64,000 bases of DNA, taken from the NCBI RefSeq assembly GCF_001420005.1, contig NZ_LJAK01000004.1:186001-250000 (forward strand). The letters run 5' to 3'. Position numbers and translations under genes: made by a program. The stretch comes from Loktanella sp. 3ANDIMAR09 (GTDB taxonomy: Bacteria; Pseudomonadota; Alphaproteobacteria; Rhodobacterales; Rhodobacteraceae). This document shows positions 18,396 to 27,642 of the stretch, one piece after another. The notes beneath the pieces are model-generated. The model ran no database searches and was not told the origin of the DNA. It saw nothing but the letters and a program-made list of their open reading frames with translations. Positions within the stretch are counted from its first letter, which is position 1; each line of letters starts with the position of its first letter.

Positions 18396-19280
18396 TCAAA
18401 GGCCGTTGATCGGCACCTTGAGCATGGGGTTGCCGTCGCTGTCGGTCGGGACCGCACCTGCGCGCATGTTCACCTGCAACGACGGGATGATCAGCCGCGG
18501 CATGTCGAGCTGGGCATCGCGTTCCGTGCGGAATGTGATGAAATCCGCCTTGGTCCGGCCACGCCCGACGTGAATGTTGTGTTCCTTTTCCTCGCCCACG
18601 GTCGTTTCCCACTGGATGTCGCGCCCGTTGGGACCGTAGTCGTGGCACATGAACAGGCGCATGGCGTCAGGCAGGGCCAGCACCTTCATGATGCTGTCAT
18701 ACAGGTCCTCTGCACTGCCGCCGGGGAAGTCACAGCGGGCAGATCCGCCGTCGGGCATGAACAACGTATCCCCGACAAAGGCCGCATTGCCGATAACATG
18801 GACCATGCAGGCGGGTGTATGGCCGGGCGTATAGATGGCAAAGCCCTGCATGTTGCCAATCTGGTAGGTATCGCCATCCTCGAACAGGGCGTCGAACTGG
18901 CTGCCATCGCGCTGGAATGCGGTGCCTTCGTTGAACACCTTGCCAAAGGTATCCTGCACGACCATGATTTTCGATCCGATGCCGATCTTGCCGCCCAGGC
19001 GTTCCTGAATGTAGGGCGCGGCCGACAGGTGGTCGGCATGCACATGGGTTTCGATGATCCATTCCAGACGGCAACCCATCTGCTGCACCCGTGCGATCAT
19101 GGCGTCAGCATGATCGTAGGTGATGCGGCCGGCGGCATAGTCGATATCCATCACGCTATCGATGATCGCACAGGCATCCGAGGTCGGATCCTTGACGATA
19201 TAGCTGATGGTGTTTGTCGCGGGATCAAAGAAAGCCTCGACGACCGGGGTGATGTCCATGTTGACGGGATATTGTGTCAT
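18396..19280 (-). CDS. MBL-fold hydrolase, ETHE1/persulfide dioxygenase-like (first copy)
   Basis: A 294-residue paralogue of the next gene with the motif ETHVHADHLSAA near residues 70-80, PGHTPACMV near 155, GDTLFMPD, and CHDYGPNGRD. It matches the class of MBL proteins with an ETHE1-like core and a C-terminal extension common in alphaproteobacterial sulfur clusters. The start at 19280 follows GGAGAAG; frames upstream lack a signal or homology. It would act in the cytoplasm on persulfides made by SQR. Dioxygenase versus hydrolase activity cannot be decided from sequence alone. Confidence 0.83.
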   Translation of the reverse strand: MTQYPVNMDITPVVEAFFDPATNTISYIVKDPTSDACAIIDSVMDIDYAAGRITYDHADAMIARVQQMGCRLEWIIETHVHADHLSAAPYIQERLGGKIGIGSKIMVVQDTFGKVFNEGTAFQRDGSQFDALFEDGDTYQIGNMQGFAIYTPGHTPACMVHVIGNAAFVGDTLFMPDGGSARCDFPGGSAEDLYDSIMKVLALPDAMRLFMCHDYGPNGRDIQWETTVGEEKEHNIHVGRGRTKADFITFRTERDAQLDMPRLIIPSLQVNMRAGAVPTDSDGNPMLKVPINGL

Positions 19281-19348
19281 CTTCTTCTCCATTTTGGTCC
19301 TGACTTGCGCAGTCGGCAGCAGGTCGTTCTCGGGTCGCGGCCTGGGCG

Positions 19349-19780
19349 TCAGGTCGCGGCCCCTGCGGTTTGCATCGGGGCCAACAGGCGGCGCAGGTAG
19401 AAACCGGCCGTCACGGCGATGAGGAACAACGCGACTTCCCACCGGCCTGTGCCCAGCGCGGGGATCGCAGCACCGGGACAGAACCCGGCGATGCCCCAGC
19501 CAATGCCGAACAGGGCCGAACCGCCAACAAGGTTCTTGTCGATCGCAGTGCCCGTCGGGATCTGGAAACGGGCCTCGAACAACGGGGCGTCCCGCCGCCA
19601 GACCAGCCGGTACCCCACGAATGTCACGATCAGCGCGCCGCCCATGACAAAGGCAAGGCTGGGGTCCCAGGTGCCAGCCAGATCAAAGAAATTCAGGACC
19701 TTGGCCGGGTCCATCATCCCGGAGAGGGAAATGCCGATGCCAAAGACCAGCCCGGTGATCAACGCATAGAATAGTTTCAT
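19349..19780 (-). CDS. DUF6691/YeeE-type membrane protein (sulfur transport half)
   Basis: A 143-residue protein with about four hydrophobic helices and motifs GIGISLSGMMDPAKVLNFFD near the start and GIGWGIAGFCPGAAIPAL near 93-110. The conserved Cys in GFCPG is the mark of the YeeE/YedE superfamily, which moves sulfur-containing anions or sulfur equivalents. It pairs with the next gene, three bases upstream, as the two halves of a split transporter (PmpAB-like). It belongs to the persulfide operon. Confidence 0.82.
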   Translation of the reverse strand: MKLFYALITGLVFGIGISLSGMMDPAKVLNFFDLAGTWDPSLAFVMGGALIVTFVGYRLVWRRDAPLFEARFQIPTGTAIDKNLVGGSALFGIGWGIAGFCPGAAIPALGTGRWEVALFLIAVTAGFYLRRLLAPMQTAGAAT

Positions 19781-19783
19781 GAC

Positions 19784-20215
19784 TCAGGCTCCAAACACGT
19801 GACGGATGATGAAAACGGTGATCGCGGCGGTCACCATGAAGGTCGGCACCGCTACCAGCGACCGGACCGACAGCCGCGACAGGCCGCAGACCCCGTGACC
19901 GGATGTGCAACCCGACCCCAGACTTGCGCCCAGACCGACGATCACGCCGCCGATCACGATCATCACGGGGCTGACGGGCACGTTCACGACAGGCATCTGA
20001 CCTGTCACGAAAAAGAGGGTGACCGGGGCCAGAACCATGCCAGCGATCAACGCCAGCCGCCACGACAGTTCCGCCCGGCTGGTGATGAAAACCGCACCCG
20101 ACATAATACCGGTCGCACCAAAGATGCGCCCCAGGCCCAGCATTAGCAGCACAGCGCCAAGACCGATGGCAAGGCCGCCGCCGAAGGATGTAAATGGTGT
20201 GAACGCCGTTTCCAT
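19784..20215 (-). CDS. YeeE/YedE family protein (other half of the split transporter)
   Basis: A 143-residue membrane protein with GLGASLGSGCTSGHGVCGL near 95-113, the Cys-rich hallmark of YeeE/YedE proteins. It is followed after three bases by its DUF6691 partner and preceded by a DUF2892 gene. The pair probably transports a reduced sulfur species across the inner membrane; the direction is unknown. Confidence 0.85.
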   Translation of the reverse strand: METAFTPFTSFGGGLAIGLGAVLLMLGLGRIFGATGIMSGAVFITSRAELSWRLALIAGMVLAPVTLFFVTGQMPVVNVPVSPVMIVIGGVIVGLGASLGSGCTSGHGVCGLSRLSVRSLVAVPTFMVTAAITVFIIRHVFGA

Positions 20216-20216
20216 C

Positions 20217-20432
20217 TCAGCAGTCCTTGCAGGTCTTGAGGCCCAGCAGCGAATAGAGCGGGCACATTTTCAGGGTGGCGGTCGCCAGCATGATCAGGCC
20301 GATCAGCGCTGCGCCGTATTTGAACAGGACCGCGTCAAACAACGCCAGGCCGCTGAAAAACGCGAGGAACAGCAAAACCACGCCCAGCGCCGCGCGCAGG
20401 GTCCGGTCCAGTTTGCCAACATTGGTCGTCAT
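20217..20432 (-). CDS. DUF2892-type small membrane protein
   Basis: A 71-residue protein with the family start NVGKLDRTLRAALGVVLL, two hydrophobic helices and a C-terminal CPLYSLLGLKTCKDC tail with three cysteines. DUF2892 domains are often attached to rhodaneses (YgaP type) and lie in sulfur clusters. The start at 20432 has GGAGA upstream and agrees with the family; longer frames do not. It is the first gene of the persulfide operon on this strand, one base before the YeeE gene. Confidence 0.82.
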   Translation of the reverse strand: MTTNVGKLDRTLRAALGVVLLFLAFFSGLALFDAVLFKYGAALIGLIMLATATLKMCPLYSLLGLKTCKDC

Positions 20433-20491
20433 GTGATGTCTCCACAGAATCAGGTCTGTGACTTCACTACGCCTGCGGCGGCAATCCTTCA

Positions 20492-20504
20492 GTGATATTG
20501 TCAC
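20492..20504. promoter_or_regulatory. Candidate Crp/Fnr-type dyad GTGA-N5-TCAC
   Basis: GTGATATTGTCAC is an inverted repeat of GTGA/TCAC with a 5-nt spacer. It lies in the 109-nt gap upstream of the DUF2892-led operon and right after the stop of the Crp/Fnr regulator gene. The half-site fits Crp/Fnr recognition, though the spacer is one base shorter than usual. Confidence 0.35.
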
Positions 20505-20541
20505 CCAAACCGAAAAGGTTGTTCCGCGCGGGGTGCCAGCG

Positions 20542-21204
20542 TCAGCTTTGCGCGATGGCGCGCAGGCCCGCACGGTCTGTCAGCGTGACGTGGCCGCGGG
20601 TCTGACTGATCAATCCCCGCTTGGCAAAATCCTGCAACACACGCGACACGACCTCGCGCGCGGTGCCCAACTCGCTGGCCAACTGCTGATGGGTGGTGGC
20701 GATGTCCTGATCGTCGCGCGCAAGGCCCAAGAGCCGTTCCGCCAACCGCACGTCGATCCGGCCAAAGGCCACGTCGTCGACGACGCGCAGCAGATCAATC
20801 AGGCGACGCGAATAGGCGGCAAAGACGAATGACCGGAACGCGGGTTCCTCTGACACCAGCTGATCGAACGATGTGCGCGGCAGAATGATCGCCGTCACGT
20901 CCGTCTCGGCGATGCCTTCGGCGTTATAGGCCTCTTCTGCCAGCATGCAGGCGGTGGTCAGAACGCAGCTTTCGCCGGCTTCGACCCGGTAAAGCACAAT
21001 GTCGCGGCCATTTTCAGAGGTTTGCGAGACGCGGATCGTGCCATCCACGAGAAACATCAGGCTGTCGGGAATATTGCTGGGACCGAAAACGGATTTACCG
21101 GCGGCATAGCGGACGGTCTGGGCACTGCGTTGCAGCCTGTCACGCACGTCACGCGGCAGGGCTGCGGTGCCCTGAAACCGAGCTGTCCAATCCACGAGCG
21201 TCAT
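20542..21204 (-). CDS. Crp/Fnr family transcriptional regulator
   Basis: A 220-residue regulator with a cyclic-nucleotide-binding-like beta-barrel (about 20-120), a dimer helix (about 125-150) and a C-terminal winged helix (THQQLASELGTAREVVSRVLQDF, about 165-190). A single Cys in the barrel region (ESCVLTTACMLAEE holds two) could be redox- or sulfur-sensitive; there is no N-terminal Cys cluster as in true FNR. The start at 21204 is chosen because the barrel begins soon after. It lies between the two sulfur gene units on the same strand and is their likely regulator. Confidence 0.85.
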   Translation of the reverse strand: MTLVDWTARFQGTAALPRDVRDRLQRSAQTVRYAAGKSVFGPSNIPDSLMFLVDGTIRVSQTSENGRDIVLYRVEAGESCVLTTACMLAEEAYNAEGIAETDVTAIILPRTSFDQLVSEEPAFRSFVFAAYSRRLIDLLRVVDDVAFGRIDVRLAERLLGLARDDQDIATTHQQLASELGTAREVVSRVLQDFAKRGLISQTRGHVTLTDRAGLRAIAQS

Positions 21205-21338
21205 CGTGCGCCCCTGACGGCTGGCGCGAGAATGGCATCGCATGCGGAAATGGACATCATGACAGGTCGTTCCTCGGGTCGTGACTACCTGCCACGACAC
21301 CGCCCGCCGGGCAAGTCACCTTGCCGGGACCTGTGCTG

Positions 21339-21515
21339 CTAGTCCGCTGTCGGCAGTGCGGCGCAATGCGCGCCTGCCCCGGCCAGCCCGGATCCTAACG
21401 CCAGCGCAGGGGGGGCCTGAAACGGATCAAGCGGCGCGCTGTTGGCAAGGTCCACACCCAGCAGCCCAAGCAAAAGCGCAAAGACGGTCACCACTGTCAG
21501 TCTGCGTGTCATCAT
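21339..21515 (-). CDS. Small secreted or membrane-anchored peptide in sulfur operon
   Basis: A 58-residue open frame whose ATG overlaps the TGA of the upstream YeeE/YedE gene, so it is translationally coupled. Residues about 5-26 form a signal-like hydrophobic helix (LTVVTVFALLLGLLGVDLA), followed by a short Pro/Ala/Gly-rich tail with one cysteine (GAHCAALPTAD). I do not recognise the family. Coupling and base composition argue for a real gene; a role as periplasmic carrier or transporter accessory is speculation. Confidence 0.55.
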   Translation of the reverse strand: MMTRRLTVVTVFALLLGLLGVDLANSAPLDPFQAPPALALGSGLAGAGAHCAALPTAD

Positions 21516-22633
21516 CACCCGTCCAATCCCAATGCCTTGCGGATGCGGATTCCCTGGAATGCCCCGGCAAAGGCTGCCACGAACCAGACCCAGCCGTGCA
21601 GGCTGCCCGTCGAAATTCCCGAAAAGAACGCGCCGACGTTGCAACCAAAGGCAAGGCGCGACGAATAACCCAGCAGGAACCCGGCAATGATCGTGCCGAT
21701 CCAGGCCCGCAGCGGCAGCTGCGGCAGGCGCGCGGACAGTCCCGACCGCCATGCGGCGATGATGAACGCGCCGCCGATGATGCCGATATTCGTCAGTGAC
21801 GTGACATCTGTCAGCAGGCTTTCTGCGATCCGCGCCTGGTTCGTGGGCAGCGTCCAGAACGCAGACCCCGAAATATCCATGCCCAATGCTGTGACCCCCT
21901 TGGCCGCCCACAGCCCCAGACCATACACGACGCCCCAGGGCTGACCGGCAACCACGAGGTTCGCCAGTGCCAGCACCGCCAGCAAACCCGCCGCGATCCA
22001 CAACCTGCGCGGCAGGCTGCGGGCACCCGGTGCCGCGAGATACAGCGCCAGTCCTGCGACCGCCGCCAGCCCCGCCAGCGTCAGCACCAGACCTGACGTG
22101 CCGGACAACACGACCACGGGGGCGGTGCCCAGATTGGTCCACCACAGCAGGTGGTAGGCCCCGGCAAAGGACCCGATGGCAAAGAACGGCAGCGCCAGCG
22201 CGCTGACCGGGTTGCCGCTGCCCGCGTTGACCAATGTGCCGGACCCGCAGCCCAGCACGATCTGCATGCAGGCCCCGAACACAAAGGCGCCGCCGATCAT
22301 GGCATAGCCCACCGGGGCATGCGCGCCGATCAGTTCTGTCCCGTTATTGGCGATCAGCGGGATCGCCACCAGTGCGACCAGCGCAATCGACAGGAGTTGC
22401 GCAATCAGGCCCGCGGGTTCGCGCCGCAGGATCATGGCGCGCCACGGTCCTGCAAAACCGAACCGGAACCCCTCGAGGATCAGGCCAAACCCCAGGCCCA
22501 CCGCCAGCAAGAGCCCGTAGCGGACCCCCGCTGTGGCAGACAGCCCAAGGATCGCGACCAGCGCGCCGAGGATGAGGCCCGTGCGCGTCAGGGTCGATGA
22601 CCGGGCGGGCGCGATTGCAGCAGCGCTGGTCAT
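21515..22633 (-). CDS. YeeE/YedE family transporter, TsuA-like (thiosulfate)
   Basis: A 372-residue protein with around nine to ten hydrophobic helices. Conserved cysteines sit in the two repeats: GACMQIVLGCGSGTLVNAG in the first half and SSRLAFGCNVGAFFSGIS near the C-terminus. These match the thiosulfate transporter TsuA group of YeeE proteins, which pass thiosulfate along a chain of cysteines. The start at 22633 is four bases after the stop of the rhodanese gene. Thiosulfate uptake together with a periplasmic rhodanese is a sensible pair; exact substrate is inferred. Confidence 0.85.
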   Translation of the reverse strand: MTSAAAIAPARSSTLTRTGLILGALVAILGLSATAGVRYGLLLAVGLGFGLILEGFRFGFAGPWRAMILRREPAGLIAQLLSIALVALVAIPLIANNGTELIGAHAPVGYAMIGGAFVFGACMQIVLGCGSGTLVNAGSGNPVSALALPFFAIGSFAGAYHLLWWTNLGTAPVVVLSGTSGLVLTLAGLAAVAGLALYLAAPGARSLPRRLWIAAGLLAVLALANLVVAGQPWGVVYGLGLWAAKGVTALGMDISGSAFWTLPTNQARIAESLLTDVTSLTNIGIIGGAFIIAAWRSGLSARLPQLPLRAWIGTIIAGFLLGYSSRLAFGCNVGAFFSGISTGSLHGWVWFVAAFAGAFQGIRIRKALGLDG

Positions 22634-22637
22634 CGGA

Positions 22638-23591
22638 TCAGAACACGCTCTTGATCTGGTTCCACATCCGACGGACCGGACCCGGCACATTTGCCATCTC
22701 GTAGCCGGCGTTCGACCAGCCGACCATCGATTCAGGGTAAAGCTTTACGTTTTCCAGGCCGGCCAGCTCGCTCATCGCGAACCAGTTCGTTGCCGCCCAA
22801 TGGCCCGTGTTGCAGAAACTGATGATCGGCGCGCCGTCGTCCAGGTTCCCCTCGCTTGCCAACGCGCGGGCCGCGTCGGCATCGACGATCACGGGACCGT
22901 TGCTGAACCAGTTGGAATGGGTGAAATATTCGGATTGCGGCAGTGTGCCTGGCTTGGCCGCAGCCGGATGCGCCTGCTCGCCTGCCCAAAAGGATTCGGG
23001 GCGTGCGTCAACCAGGGTCGCCTCTGCCTCGCCATTGACGATGGACAGCACCTCTTCGCGGGTCGCAAGCCATTCGTCGGAGTAGGACACCTCGATCATG
23101 CTCGGCTCTGGCGTGACTTCGCCCTCGTCCAGCGACAGTCCGGCTTCGGTCCAGGCGTTCATGCCGCCGTTCAGGATCGCCAACTGGCTGACGCCGCTGG
23201 ATTTCAGCGTCCAATACACACGCGCCGCCGCGCCAAAGTCGGTCACATCGCTGCCCTGATGCACGATCAGCGTGGGGCGGTCGCGGGTGACGCCCAGGTC
23301 GCGCAGCACTTCTTGCAGGCGCTCCGCGGGCACAACCTCGCCGGGGCTCTCTGCGCTGCCACGGAACAACGCGTAGGGTGCGCTGACCGCGCCGGGGATA
23401 TGCCCCGCTGCGTGAACGCTGTTGCCGTCGGCATCGGGCGACCGGATGTCGATCACCAGCGGGCTGACCTCTGACTGCACTTCGGTAAATTCAGCCGGTG
23501 TCAGCAGCGGGCCGAAATCGTTGACCTGGGCGAATGCGGGCAGCGGCAGAGCCAGCGCCCCCGCAAGTGTAATAGCTGTAAAGCGTGTCAT
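22638..23591 (-). CDS. Periplasmic two-domain rhodanese (thiosulfate sulfurtransferase-like)
   Basis: A 317-residue protein with a signal peptide (cleavage near AFA-Q) and two rhodanese domains, about 30-155 and 165-300. The C-terminal domain has the active-site Cys in SFCNTGHWA, while the matching loop of the first domain reads VHQGSDVTD and lacks Cys, the normal division of labour in SseA-type enzymes. It would transfer sulfane sulfur in the periplasm. The start at 23591 has AGAGGA before it. It leads the unit rhodanese, TsuA-like transporter, small peptide. Confidence 0.87.
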   Translation of the reverse strand: MTRFTAITLAGALALPLPAFAQVNDFGPLLTPAEFTEVQSEVSPLVIDIRSPDADGNSVHAAGHIPGAVSAPYALFRGSAESPGEVVPAERLQEVLRDLGVTRDRPTLIVHQGSDVTDFGAAARVYWTLKSSGVSQLAILNGGMNAWTEAGLSLDEGEVTPEPSMIEVSYSDEWLATREEVLSIVNGEAEATLVDARPESFWAGEQAHPAAAKPGTLPQSEYFTHSNWFSNGPVIVDADAARALASEGNLDDGAPIISFCNTGHWAATNWFAMSELAGLENVKLYPESMVGWSNAGYEMANVPGPVRRMWNQIKSVF

Positions 23592-23807: not shown

Positions 23808-24446
23808 TCACCACCGCAGGAAAAAATACCCCAGAATGCCGCCGCAGCCTGCCACGGCCAACACCGCAAGACTGTACCAACTGGCGTAGAACAGCGGGGA
23901 ATTCTCGATGCAATAAACCGAATAGACCGCCGCCGCCGTGGCACCCGCACCCAGCCCCGCAACGGCACCGCACAGTGCCGGGTGTTCCGGCGCACCGCGC
24001 CGTAGCGCCGCCAACAGGCCGATGAGGACCGGCACAGACAAAACCGGGATCGATATCAGGCAGGTCACGATGGATTTGCCACGCAAAGCCATGGGCCAGG
24101 CATCGCCCGGTGTCGTGACCAGCGTCATGGCAACCAGCAGGATCAGTGCCAACGGAATACTCCAGATCAGCCGCGCCGCACCGCTGCGCCCCGCCGGGCG
24201 CGCCGTGGCATGCAGCCAGAACAACGCAAGACAGGCCAGCACCAACGGAAGGACCGTTTTCGCAAACAGCGCAAGGTCGCCGAAGATCCCGACCAGGTCC
24301 GACCGCACGCCCCAGAACGCAAAAAACAGCACAGATGTGCCCACCAGCCCCGCCAAAAGGCCCGTCGCGATCTGCCGCGTCAGATATCCGCGTGGCAGCG
24401 GTGTCAGTTCCGATCCCAGCGATTTGATCAGGTCATCGGTATTCAT
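23808..24446 (-). CDS. nrsF: NrsF-type anti-sigma factor (DUF1109)
   Basis: A 212-residue membrane protein: about 20 cytoplasmic residues ([20 protein letters not shown]) followed by six hydrophobic helices. This is the build of DUF1109/NrsF, the membrane anti-sigma factor that holds Caulobacter SigF and releases it on heavy-metal stress. Conserved cysteines occur in helices (TCLISIP, ALCGAV, YCIENS), matching the idea that metal or redox change at cysteines triggers release. It overlaps the sigma gene by four bases. Assignment rests on topology, length and its partner. Confidence 0.85.
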   Translation of the reverse strand: MNTDDLIKSLGSELTPLPRGYLTRQIATGLLAGLVGTSVLFFAFWGVRSDLVGIFGDLALFAKTVLPLVLACLALFWLHATARPAGRSGAARLIWSIPLALILLVAMTLVTTPGDAWPMALRGKSIVTCLISIPVLSVPVLIGLLAALRRGAPEHPALCGAVAGLGAGATAAAVYSVYCIENSPLFYASWYSLAVLAVAGCGGILGYFFLRW

Positions 24447-25012
24447 TCACGTGCCTTTCCGGATTGTTCCGTCTGGTCGGCAACCGCGAGGGCTGACAGC
24501 TTTGCCAAGGCCCGGTGCAATGCGACCCGCACCGCACCGGGCGTCATGCCCAACGTGCGGCCCACCTCTTCGGCGGTGCGACCCTCCAGCCTGATCTGCC
24601 GCACGATCAAGGCCGATGTCGCGTCAAGCTGGCCCAGCAGACGATCCAGATCAGCCGCAGCCGTGGGGTCATGGCTGGCCTCATCTGCGACATTCAGCTC
24701 GCTGCCGTCATACGATACGGTCGGACGACGCATCGACAGCCGCATCGCGTCCACCGTCTTGTAGCGTGCGATTGCATAGGCCCAGGGGCCGACCGGTTCG
24801 CCGTCTCGCCAGGTGTGGCGTTTTTCGTGAATGGCGATCAGCACGTTTTGCAAAATGTCCTCGCAATCCTCTTTGGGGCGGCCGCAGCGTGCGGCGATGA
24901 TGCCCCGTAGAACCGGGGCGATGTCGTTCAGAAACTGAACATAGGACGCACGACCGCCTGCATTGGCGTCGCGCAACAAGCTGGCCCAGCGGTCTTCTCT
25001 TGTGCGTCCCAT
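24443..25012 (-). CDS. sigF: ECF sigma factor, SigF-like
   Basis: A 189-residue ECF sigma factor with region 2 (about 20-85, [34 protein letters not shown]) and region 4 (about 115-170, [29 protein letters not shown]). An ATG at 25033 is also in frame, but it has no Shine-Dalgarno and a promoter-like -10 (25027-25024) falls inside its first codons, so I prefer the ATG at 25012. It overlaps nrsF by four bases. It is divergent from the bufferin operon and both share the same promoter motif, so it probably controls itself and that operon under copper or other metal stress, as Caulobacter SigF does. Confidence 0.88.
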
Positions 25013-25023
25013 ATCATCCAGTT

Positions 25024-25048
25024 CGTCGGTCATGGGGCAGACGTTACA
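25024..25048 (-). promoter_or_regulatory. Candidate SigF promoter of sigF-nrsF
   Basis: On the minus strand TGTAACG (25048-25042) is followed by exactly 16 nt and CGAA (25027-25024). The same motif and spacing occurs facing the bufferin operon. It fits my memory of the Caulobacter SigF consensus (GTAAC-N16-CGAA). The start site would fall only a few bases before the ATG at 25012, giving an almost leaderless mRNA. Confidence 0.65.
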
Positions 25049-25133
25049 CCCATGTCCGCGAAAAAGTCCGCAGTGTTCGATCACGGGCCGCGCCGACCCC
25101 AAGTGTTTCATCCGGTCACGACGACGCGAGGGC

Positions 25134-25160
25134 TGTAACGTCCCCGGGTCCGGCTGCGAA
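25134..25160 (+). promoter_or_regulatory. Candidate SigF promoter of the bufferin operon
   Basis: TGTAACG (25134-25140), 16 nt, CGAA (25157-25160). It is 55 nt upstream of the precursor gene start. Motif and spacing are identical to the oppositely oriented copy at 25048-25024. Confidence 0.72.
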
Positions 25161-25214
25161 TTGCCCTGCATCGGACGCCACAACGGTGCCGACAGATTGA
25201 TGGGAGAACACCAG

Positions 25215-25508
25215 ATGACGACCAAGACAACGACCCTCGCCCTTGCCCTCATCGGCGCTTGCGTTTCCGTGACCGGCGCATCCGCACAGGACATGGAAAA
25301 ATGCTTTGGCATTTCGCTGGCCGGTGAAAACGGCTGCGCCGCTGGCCCCGGCACGACCTGCGCCGGCACCTCGACCATCGACTACCAGGGCAATGCCTGG
25401 GCGCTGGTGCCTGCCGGCACCTGCGAGGACATGGTCATCGACGCCGCCGCTGACGGTGAAAAGCGTATGGGTTCGCTCGAGGCGCTGGAGCGCGACCTGC
25501 CCGCATAA
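25215..25508 (+). CDS. bufA: Bufferin precursor peptide, BufA1-type (DUF2282)
   Basis: A 97-residue peptide with an N-terminal signal sequence (cleavage near ASA-QD, residue 24-25). The mature part holds four cysteines, Cys30, Cys41, Cys49 and Cys70, in the spaced DUF2282 pattern [24 protein letters not shown] and AGTCEDM. DUF2282 proteins are the precursors of bufferins, secreted RiPPs in which an MNIO enzyme converts Cys residues to thiooxazoles that bind copper. GGGAGA lies before the ATG at 25215; a longer frame upstream is not supported. A stem-loop follows the gene, and the MNIO enzyme, its partner and a DoxX protein come next. Confidence 0.88.
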
Positions 25509-25517
25509 CCCCATGGG

Positions 25518-25550
25518 GGCAGCGCGCGGCGGTCCCGGCCACGCGCTGCC
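25518..25550 (+). other. Stem-loop between precursor and MNIO genes
   Basis: GGCAGCGCG (25518-25526) pairs perfectly with CGCGCTGCC (25542-25550) around a 15-nt loop that can itself fold. It has no T tract. Its place after the small precursor suggests it gives more precursor than enzyme, by partial termination or mRNA protection. Confidence 0.55.
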
Positions 25551-25583
25551 CTGCCACCTGCACCCGACCCGGAGGAATTCGTC

Positions 25584-26429
25584 GTGACACAGCTGCCAGA
25601 GGCAACAGGCATCGGTTTCAAACGCACCCATTTCGAGGCCCTGCGCCAGACGCCGAACCAGTTGGGTTTCATCGAGGTGCATGCCGAAAACTACATGGGC
25701 GATGGCGGCCCGACCCATGCACAGCTGACCGCGCTGCGTAAAGACTATGCGCTGTCCGTGCACGGTGTCGGCCTGTCCATCGGCGGGGCAGAGCCGCTGA
25801 ACCGCGACCACCTGAACCGTCTGAAACACCTGTGCGACCGCTATGCGCCCGACAGTTTTTCCGAACATCTGGCATGGTCCAGTCACGGCGGGGATTTTTT
25901 GAATGACCTTTTGCCCCTGCCCTATGACGATGCGACGCTGGATGTCGTCTGCGACCATATCGATCAGGTTCAGGACAGGCTGGGCCGCCGGATGCTGCTG
26001 GAAAACCCTTCTACCTATGTGACCTTCGAGACCTCGACCCTGGCCGAGACCGATTTTTTGTCGCAGATCACGGCCCGCACCGGGTGCGGGCTGTTGCTGG
26101 ACATCAACAATGTCTTTGTCAGCTGCACCAATCACCGCACCGATCCGCGTGCCTATCTGGCTGATTTCCCGCTGCATGCGGTGGGCGAAATCCATCTGGG
26201 CGGACACGACGCCGAGGACCTGCCCTCTGGTCCCTTGCTGATCGACGCGCATGGATCACCCGTCGCGGACCCTGTCTGGACCCTCTATACCGAAACGATC
26301 ATGCGGATCGGGCCGCGGCCGACGCTGATCGAATGGGATACGGATGTGCCTGCCCTGTCGGTGCTGCTGGACGAGGCGGACCGGGCGGACGCAATTCTGA
26401 AAGGCGCGCGCCATGCACGCGCATCTTGA
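25584..26429 (+). CDS. bufB: MNIO-family maturation enzyme BufB (DUF692)
   Basis: A 281-residue TIM-barrel enzyme of the multinuclear non-heme iron oxidase family (DUF692). Likely metal ligands are visible: HAEN (33-36), His60 in SVHGVG, Glu94/His95 in SEHLAW, Glu140-Asn141, Asp173/Asn176 in LLDINNV, His184, His204 and His208 in EIHLGGH, Asp221/His223 and Glu250. It would modify cysteines of the precursor in the cytoplasm before export. The start is GTG at 25584 with GGAGG nine bases before. It overlaps bufC by 17 bases. Confidence 0.9.
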
Positions 26430-27153
26430 AACGCAGACGGCATTTCGCAACGGGTTGAAAACGGGGGCCGTGCCGCCGGGCATCACCGCGGTGGGCGATG
26501 TTGAACGGCGGTTTTCGGTCTATCGCAACACGGTCGCGCATTCGCTGACGGACGCGTTGTGCCAGCGGTTCCCGACCGTGCTCCGGCTCGTGGGGGATGC
26601 GTTCTTCAGGGCGACCGCCGGTGTCTTTGTCGCCGAAAACCCGCCCCAGTCTGCCATCCTGCATGACTATGGCACGGCGTTTCCCGAATTTCTGGCCGGT
26701 TTCCCGCCAGCGGCGACATTGCCCTATCTGCCCGATATCGCCCGGATCGAGGTCCTGCGCGGACAGGCCTATCACGCCGCCGACGCCCTGCCGATGACCG
26801 CGCAATCCATCAGCGACGCCCTTGCCGCAGGGCCAGAGGAACGCGGCCTGACGCTGCACCCTTCGGTGCGGGTCATCACGTCGGACCACCCAGTTGTTGC
26901 GATCTGGGCCATGAACCAGCCCGGTGCGACCCCCCGGCCCGTGCCGCCTGAACCGCAGGCGGCCCTGATGTTCCGGCTGGGGGAAAATATCCCCGTGGTC
27001 GGCGTCACGGCGGATACCGCAGGCATCGTCACACGACTTTTGGCGGGTGAACGGCTGGGAACGGCCTGCGCCGACGTCCCGCCACAGGTCGCAAGTGTGG
27101 CGATCGGACTGCTGATCCAACACGGCCTGATTATCCAAGTGACCCAAACCTGA
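26413..27153 (+). CDS. bufC: DUF2063 MNIO partner protein BufC
   Basis: A 246-residue protein with an N-terminal DUF2063 domain (about 1-95: helix-rich, [21 protein letters not shown]-type region near 35-55) followed by a C-terminal region that probably recognises the precursor leader. Such proteins are obligatory partners of MNIO enzymes. The gene overlaps bufB, which argues for equal amounts. No catalytic motif is visible. Confidence 0.87.
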
Positions 27154-27165
27154 CGGGAGATCCCC

Positions 27166-27642
27166 ATGACTGACCTCACAGCCACGCGCACCACCGCACC
27201 CACGACCGGACCCATCCGAAAGGCCATTCAGGCCGGCAACGCCTTGGCCGGTTGCCTGCCCTGGGCTGTGCCTGCGCTGCTGGCACGGTTGATCCCCGCA
27301 TGGGTTTTCTGGGCCTCGGCCCGCACCAAGGTCGATGGCTTTGCCATTGCCGACAGCACATGGTGGCTGTTTGAGAACGAATACGCCTTGCCACTGATCC
27401 CCGCTGCACTGGCCGCGGTACTGGCAACGGTGGCCGAGCACCTGTTCGCCTTGCTGCTGGCATTGGGATTGGCGACGCGTCTGTCAGCAGCGGCGCTGCT
27501 GGTGATGACGCTGGTCATTCAGGTTTTCGTCTATCCCGGCGCATGGGTCACCCATGGTCTGTGGGCCGTCTGTTTTCTGGTCCTGATTGCACGCGGACCG
27601 GGTGCCCTGTCGCTGGACCGCGCGCTCAGGCTGGATCGCTGA
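27166..27642 (+). CDS. bufD: DoxX family membrane protein BufD
   Basis: A 158-residue protein with about four hydrophobic helices and the DoxX pattern ([20 protein letters not shown] near 38-57). DoxX proteins commonly close bufferin operons; a redox or export-supporting role is suspected but unproven. GGGAGATC lies before its ATG, 12 bases after bufC. Confidence 0.83.

Follow-up and report, generated by a model that had tools for sequence, protein, structure and literature searches.

Is the sigma factor SigF the only input to bufferin production in the Rhodobacterales? The question is raised by a locus of Loktanella sp. 3ANDIMAR09 in which the operon bufABCD, coding for a bufferin precursor, its maturase and two further proteins, stands divergent from the genes of an extracytoplasmic function (ECF) sigma factor, sigF, and of its membrane anti-sigma factor, nrsF. 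We analyzed the 64,000-nucleotide stretch that holds this locus (contig NZ_LJAK01000004.1, positions 186,001 to 250,000; hereafter the window), following up a first-pass annotation made from the letters alone. The operon type is known from Caulobacter; newly described here is a conserved box at bufA promoters, just upstream of the SigF −35 element. Since the box is of CenR type, SigF may not be the sole input to the bufA promoter. The enzymology of bufferins is under study, whereas we found little on how they are regulated in bacteria other than Caulobacter and its relatives. The words promoter, CenR and two-component are absent from the main text of the 2025 bufferin survey (PMC12452194).

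A bufferin operon divergent from sigF and nrsF

All six genes lie where the first-pass annotation had placed them, nrsF and sigF divergent from bufABCD, and Pfam bears out their families. The check that it had proposed, a comparison of precursor and enzyme with their profiles, gives 80.1 bits for BufA against DUF2282 (cut-off 22.4) and 354.5 bits for BufB against MbnB_TglH_ChrH, the DUF692 family (cut-off 25). Cut-offs are also exceeded by BufC with DUF2063 (79.1 against 27.2), BufD with DoxX (59.1 against 23.6), NrsF with its Pfam family (163.5 against 26.8) and SigF with Sigma70_r4_2 (36.7 against 25.7) and Sigma70_r2 (29.5 against 24). The proposed MNIO operon for a ribosomally synthesized and post-translationally modified peptide of bufferin type is upheld by the curated bufferin-maturase model of NCBIfam, MNIO_BufB, which BufB passes with 386.6 bits (cut-off 310). 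The best NCBIfam matches of BufC (HvfC, 37 bits, cut-off 142) and BufD (HvfX, 55 bits, cut-off 80) lie below cut-off, and the NCBIfam search of the locus proteins gave no match for BufA. Among the matches listed (25 of 47 NCBIfam families), the sigma factor passes only the sigma70-ECF superfamily model (48.7 against 42.9). NrsF fails the AntiSigF_NrsF equivalog model (86.6 bits, cut-off 300), so that strict orthology with Caulobacter NrsF does not follow from it; we therefore file the protein under PF06532. With a 17-bp overlap of bufB and bufC and 12 bp between bufC and bufD, the spacing is operon-like. Profile searches of the window's genome (3,674,828 bases in 34 contigs, all covered by the genome-wide pattern counts) found a single MNIO match and a single DUF2282 match. 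The window very probably holds an ordinary, complete Buf1 bufferin operon with SigF/NrsF control.

A conserved box at bufA promoters

Control by SigF and NrsF, which had been proposed from Caulobacter work, is supported by two perfect ECF16-type promoters, one before each of the divergent operons, which are the genome's only two matches to TGTAACG-N16-CGAA. The reversed control pattern also has two matches. This equal frequency detracts from the SigF reading and makes the count unremarkable by itself; its weight lies in both real matches falling within one expected 0.2-kb region. That the SigF regulon of this genome extends further was considered and rejected, as the four further sites of GTAAC-N17-CGAA, read by eye, all fall within or antisense to open frames; no such site was seen by eye before a gene other than sigF and bufA, weaker sites not having been sought.

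The box upstream of the bufA −35 element is a conserved feature. Its core, CAC-N6-GNGA, lies 4–6 bp upstream of the SigF −35 element in 21/31 bufA promoters including that of the window, 18 of them at 5 bp, and at no other gap across 0–30 bp; at 4–6 bp it is found in 0/24 sigF promoters. When 390 genomes of the order were searched with the motif alone, 22 composite sites of box and SigF motif came up in 20 genomes, against 6 sites in the reversed control (our own table count for the control). Eighteen of the 22 stand just upstream of bufA: six at loci already in the sample (the window, G006, G010, G016, G026 and G192) and twelve in genomes new to it, some of them perhaps of species already among the named loci. 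The remaining four comprise two sites before small proteins, one before a sigF–nrsF pair and one inside an aldehyde dehydrogenase gene.

Some counts run against the box as a constant part of these promoters. It is missing from 10/31 bufA promoters, six of those ten from other orders; among six bufA promoters with a SigF motif in other orders it is present in one, as a weak match, and missing from five. Four of the 24 sigF promoters carry the core at gaps of 21–29 bp. The test pattern was, moreover, derived from the very promoters tested, in related genomes, and the counts are therefore not independent events.

In L213 (1501–2089) and L214 a composite SigF/box promoter stands before small, secreted-looking proteins whose YHS match is below the Pfam cut-off. 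These YHS-like proteins, from two genomes of one genus, are possible further SigF targets.

Bufferin operons without SigF

Linkage to SigF/NrsF is a minority state among the DUF2282 genomes of the family. DUF2282 is present in 140 of 198 family genomes and NrsF in 30, 29 of them above the cut-off; they are neighbours on one contig, about 5 kb apart at most, in 17/140, according to hand-read tables in which broken assemblies may hide some cases. This proportion sets limits to the SigF model of bufferin control in the family.

The SigF promoter motif largely follows the linkage. Among 39 family loci with BufB, from 40 genomes (L034–L073; L065 is excluded, having a DUF2282 gene and no BufB match), the forward motif (N16–18, CGAA or CGAT) stands upstream of bufA in 7/8 SigF-linked and 1/31 SigF-less loci. 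A second set comprises the 80 named loci closest to the window's BufB (the nearest-80 set): 49 SigF-linked loci, L146 without a bufA match, and 30 counted as SigF-less, which include L094, L109 and L156, with almost no sequence 5′ of bufA, and L086, a probably SigF-linked locus with SigF motifs pointing both ways. The exact N17 motif precedes bufA in 22/49 linked and 0/30 unlinked loci of this set, the low share among the former being a point against SigF control.

The BufB tree (115 rows, quick method without a mixture model) divides into two sides, one that includes the window and has 57 rows, of which 53 are SigF-linked, and one of 58 rows with 3 linked; the SigF label needs 8 changes on the tree against a shuffled mean of 38.6. 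Support for this two-way split by the Shimodaira–Hasegawa-like approximate likelihood ratio test is 93%, not starred; a smaller set with the window in it (34 rows, of which 31 are linked) is starred with 99%. A filter on stops, length and identity removed L044, L061, L068, L071 and L078 from the tree; L078, a duplicate, is also excluded from the box and promoter scans and the residue counts.

Upstream of many SigF-less bufferin operons (loci L034–L073) there is a tandem element of the approximate form TGACG-N4-CGTGA-NN-CACG-N4-CGTGA. It emerged from a model-free count of four-letter dyads upstream of bufA in the 31 SigF-less loci: GTGA-N11-GTGA occurs in 22/31, whereas the best dyad in shuffled sequence reaches 6. 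The same dyad is found in 0/8 SigF-linked regions, and its 41 occurrences in 1.28 Mb on both strands include those 22. Its fuller form, GTGANNCACRNNNNYGTGA, has 26 matches in 20 of 26 whole genomes, and the reversed pattern has none. Sixteen of the 26 matches lie at bufA (16/20 SigF-less genomes, 0/6 SigF-linked genomes); the ten elsewhere include three in one conserved gene and one ahead of the gene for a response regulator of OmpR type. In the nearest-80 set the dyad is present in 4/30 SigF-less loci, and the element is thus common to part of the lineage rather than universal. The tandem element possibly represents paired CenR sites.

CenR as a candidate second regulator

The OmpR-type response regulator that follows one of the tandem elements is present in 20/20 genomes tested. 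We identify it as a putative CenR because the published CenR sites include one, ACACGAGCGCGTGAG, at the gene of Rhodobacter sphaeroides CenR itself (RSP_0847; PMC9275681), and the published CenR aspartates D11–D13, D51 and D56 coincide with aspartates in the regulator protein of L178. A single CACG-N4-CGTGA-like copy precedes the putative cenR in 19/20 genomes (L184–L203), mostly 82–89 bp 5′ of the start, while a CenR-type half-site occurs in 3.35% of random 220-bp control pieces. The conserved half-site suggests conserved autoregulation.

A matrix built from 31 published CenR sites scores above the 95% control level in 25/31 SigF-less bufA regions and in 4/8 SigF-linked regions, one of the eight also exceeding the 99% level; in SigF-linked operons the matches fall on the palindrome immediately 5′ of the SigF −35 element. 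The window's box, TCACGACGACGCGAG, reaches 12.2 bits on the minus strand, just short of the 99% control level (12.3). Of the 31 published sites, 28 likewise lie immediately before the −35 element, the activating position (PMC9275681). We give CenR about even odds as the binder of the bufA box. The wider reading, in which bufferin production in the Rhodobacterales would be wired into the CenKR envelope two-component system through tandem CenR sites in SigF-less operons and a composite promoter in SigF-linked ones, we regard as evenly balanced.

Several results lower the standing of CenR. On the plus strand the window's box is a weak match (8.1 bits, 95% control level 9.9), its right half reading CGCGA instead of CGTGA. 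Only 10/31 SigF-less bufA regions exceed the 99% control level, and the control levels themselves come from random pieces that are mostly coding. Matrix scores are equally high on the opposite strand in SigF-less loci, and the palindrome therefore gives no direction. The box pattern has 31 matches in the window's genome and 18 in the reversed control, and for cenR itself published chromatin immunoprecipitation gives an enrichment of just 1.4-fold, in a single strain (PMC9275681).

Alternatively, the box may be bound by another regulator, of OmpR type, of MarR type or metal-responsive, with a TCACG-N4-CGTGA operator. Such a protein would explain why the palindrome is unlike the published description of CenR sites, a TGA-N8-TGA direct repeat, why the published-site matrix gives moderate scores and why enrichment in the window's genome is limited. 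Several of the listed CenR sites are palindromic, however, TGACGCGGGCGTGAA being an example (PMC9275681); the palindrome recurs before the putative cenR (19/20 genomes), and its position just 5′ of the −35 element is that of activating CenR sites. A regulator other than CenR is conceivable, if somewhat doubtful.

The box matches in the window's genome, G000:C14:60480–60493 among them, are a possible CenR regulon, a lead only; a few of them stand before genes whose products begin with a signal-like segment.

A dyad count free of any model thus brought up a conserved DNA element that points to another regulator of copper-peptide production, besides SigF, in a large family. If the CenKR wiring is true, a copper-buffering peptide would answer both to the thiol sensor of an anti-sigma factor and to an envelope-integrity kinase. 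In the open-licence literature we found no paper joining CenR with SigF, copper and promoter, nor, among the matches listed, one treating CenR with bufferin, DUF692 or DUF2282.

Peptide maturation and the inducing signal

BufA has cysteines at positions 16, 30, 41, 49 and 70, the first inside the signal peptide, which is an N-terminal hydrophobic segment in a hydropathy scan. The four mature cysteines described in the first-pass annotation are all kept in 101/102 aligned BufA sequences. It had predicted all four as modified residues. This conflicts with published Buf1 chemistry, in which only the central pair of cysteines is reported as modified and the outer pair is joined by a disulphide (PMC12452194); thiooxazoles, the outer disulphide and copper binding are reported for Buf1 peptides (PMC12452194, PMC13097082). 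The predicted modified residues here are therefore Cys41 and Cys49, and Cys30–Cys70 is the predicted disulphide, both carried over from relatives. Likewise, the copper-binding peptide annotated as secreted would be exported only as far as the periplasm, where bufferins sequester copper (PMC12452194).

The claim of an MNIO enzyme with intact ligands is borne out by 13 of 15 checked motif residues being invariant in 115/115 aligned BufB sequences (H60, E94, H95, E140, N141, D173, N175, N176, H204, D221, H223, E250 and D252); the other two, H208 and D254, are kept in 110/115 and 104/115. BufB matches 3BWW with an E value of 1.8e-42, the motifs being common to both. Replacement of the HvfB site-3 residues N175, D242 or H244 abolishes activity (PMC13419390); by motif rather than by direct alignment, these correspond to N175, D221 and H223 of the window's BufB.

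On the control side, Cys129 and Cys179 of NrsF are invariant in 54/54 aligned sequences. OsrA of Bradyrhizobium has cysteines of identical numbering, both of which matter (PMC3420878), and the Caulobacter NrsF pair is 131/181 (PMC3511200). As to the annotated six-helix DUF1109 anti-sigma factor beside an ECF factor, both families stand, but a crude hydropathy scan of NrsF gives five separate hydrophobic segments, not six; the six-helix description therefore draws on NrsF of Caulobacter and on the Pfam match over the full length.

In the mechanism that we propose, NrsF would hold SigF at the membrane until Cys129 and Cys179 are altered by envelope stress, from metals or of thiol type, and SigF is freed, as carried over from relatives, and freed SigF would transcribe its own operon and bufABCD. 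In the cytoplasm, BufB with BufC would convert Cys41 and Cys49 of BufA to 5-thiooxazoles; the peptide would be exported by Sec, the Cys30–Cys70 disulphide would then close, and periplasmic copper would be buffered, chemistry and function again being those of relatives. BufD would support the process at the membrane. In the Rhodobacterales a second regulator, most likely CenR, at about even odds, would bind immediately 5′ of the buf −35 element, at the conserved box.

Copper induces the SigF regulon in Caulobacter, and a sigF::Tn5 mutant is copper-sensitive (PMC8224329); by analogy, we infer induction of the operon by copper in Loktanella sp. 3ANDIMAR09. Chromium and cadmium were the subject of the 2012 paper on Caulobacter SigF (PMC3511200); the copper data come from PMC8224329. 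An operon serving mainly against another stress (gold, silver, cadmium, chromate or oxidants), with copper incidental, would suit the response of Caulobacter SigF to chromate and cadmium (PMC3511200) and of ECF16 relatives to H2O2 (PMC3420878) or HOCl (PMC8315932). It is unlikely, given that the Caulobacter sigF::Tn5 mutant grows poorly with copper (PMC8224329), that a sigF deletion leaves resistance to dichromate and cadmium at the parental level (PMC3511200) and that bufferins sequester copper (PMC12452194). Still less probable is that the box, locked in phase with the −35 element, is an UP-like extension of the SigF promoter without an extra regulator, because sigF promoters, which share the SigF motif, lack it at that position (0/24) and its tandem version precedes 22/31 SigF-less bufA genes without any linked SigF.

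Features of the locus and flanking genes

Coordinates of the features are collected in Table 1. The sigF promoter (25022–25047) spans the in-frame ATG at 25031–25033, which favours ATG 25012 over 25033 as the more likely translation start, judged from sequence; a later start has been argued on like grounds for Bradyrhizobium ecfF (PMC3420878).

Table 1. Features of the sigF–nrsF and bufABCD locus (window positions)
Feature	Position	Strand	Basis
nrsF, membrane anti-sigma factor (PF06532) with conserved Cys129 and Cys179	23808..24446	−	Pfam 163.5 bits
sigF, ECF sigma factor	24443..25012	−	Pfam sigma r2 and r4 above cut-off; earlier in-frame ATG from 25033
SigF-type promoter of sigF, GTAACG-N16-CGAA	25022..25047	−	1 of 2 genome-wide TGTAACG-N16-CGAA matches
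CenR-type palindromic box TCACGACGACGCGAG	25116..25130	+	4 bp from GTAAC; CAC-N6-GNGA core 5 bp from GTAAC
SigF-type promoter of the buf operon, GTAACG-N16-CGAA	25135..25160	+	Genome-wide pattern search
bufA, precursor of the bufferin (DUF2282; 97 aa) with a hydrophobic signal segment at the N terminus and Cys30/41/49/70	25215..25508	+	Pfam, hydropathy, homologues
bufB, MNIO (DUF692) maturase, GTG start	25584..26429	+	MNIO_BufB above cut-off, motif residues
bufC, DUF2063 partner protein	26413..27153	+	Pfam 79.1 bits
bufD, DoxX membrane protein	27166..27642	+	Pfam 59.1 bits

On the minus strand at 18396–23591, a sulphur-handling cluster adjoins the operon, with a metallo-β-lactamase-fold enzyme, YeeE/YedE-type proteins, a Crp-type regulator and a periplasmic rhodanese (assigned partly by eye). 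The cluster was rejected as part of the buf system, its queries being matched in 0/40 family loci; in the nearest-80 set the YeeE query has one match, L139. A glutathione S-transferase gene was dismissed as an operon member on the same count (0/40). The aldehyde dehydrogenase gene (27710) was likewise set aside: it is matched in 2/40 family loci, on the other strand and at 31–33% identity, and in 3/80 of the nearest-80 set (L091, L104 and L123), at 28–29% identity and before rather than after the operon.

Comparison with known systems

Genes, gene order and SigF motif agree with CC3252–CC3257 of Caulobacter crescentus/vibrioides (nrsF, sigF, DUF2282, DUF692, DUF2063, DoxX; PMC3511200). Three differences are apparent: the −35 element reads GTAACG in the window and GTAACC in Caulobacter; the window's genome has one MNIO and one DUF2282 gene, whereas Caulobacter has two SigF-dependent DUF692 genes (PMC3511200); and, by eye, GTAAC-N17-CGAA precedes no gene of the window's genome besides sigF and bufA. 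Closer relatives, Loktanella salsilacus DSM 16199 (L078) and Loktanella sp. SALINAS62 (L079), share the organisation of the window, with BufB 80–81% identical and with both SigF promoters and the box (L034, with identical BufB, was read for L078). The rhodanese, YeeE-like and aldehyde dehydrogenase genes that flank the operon in the window were not found beside it in L034, L078 or L079. The SigF-less bufABC operons of the family have precursor and enzymes as in the window, and many, by eye, stand beside thrS. They differ from it in having no linked SigF/NrsF, a SigF motif in only 1/31 and the tandem GTGA-N11-GTGA in 22/31, in often carrying, by eye, a longer DoxX-like gene after bufC, and in a BufB that belongs mostly to a separate lineage.

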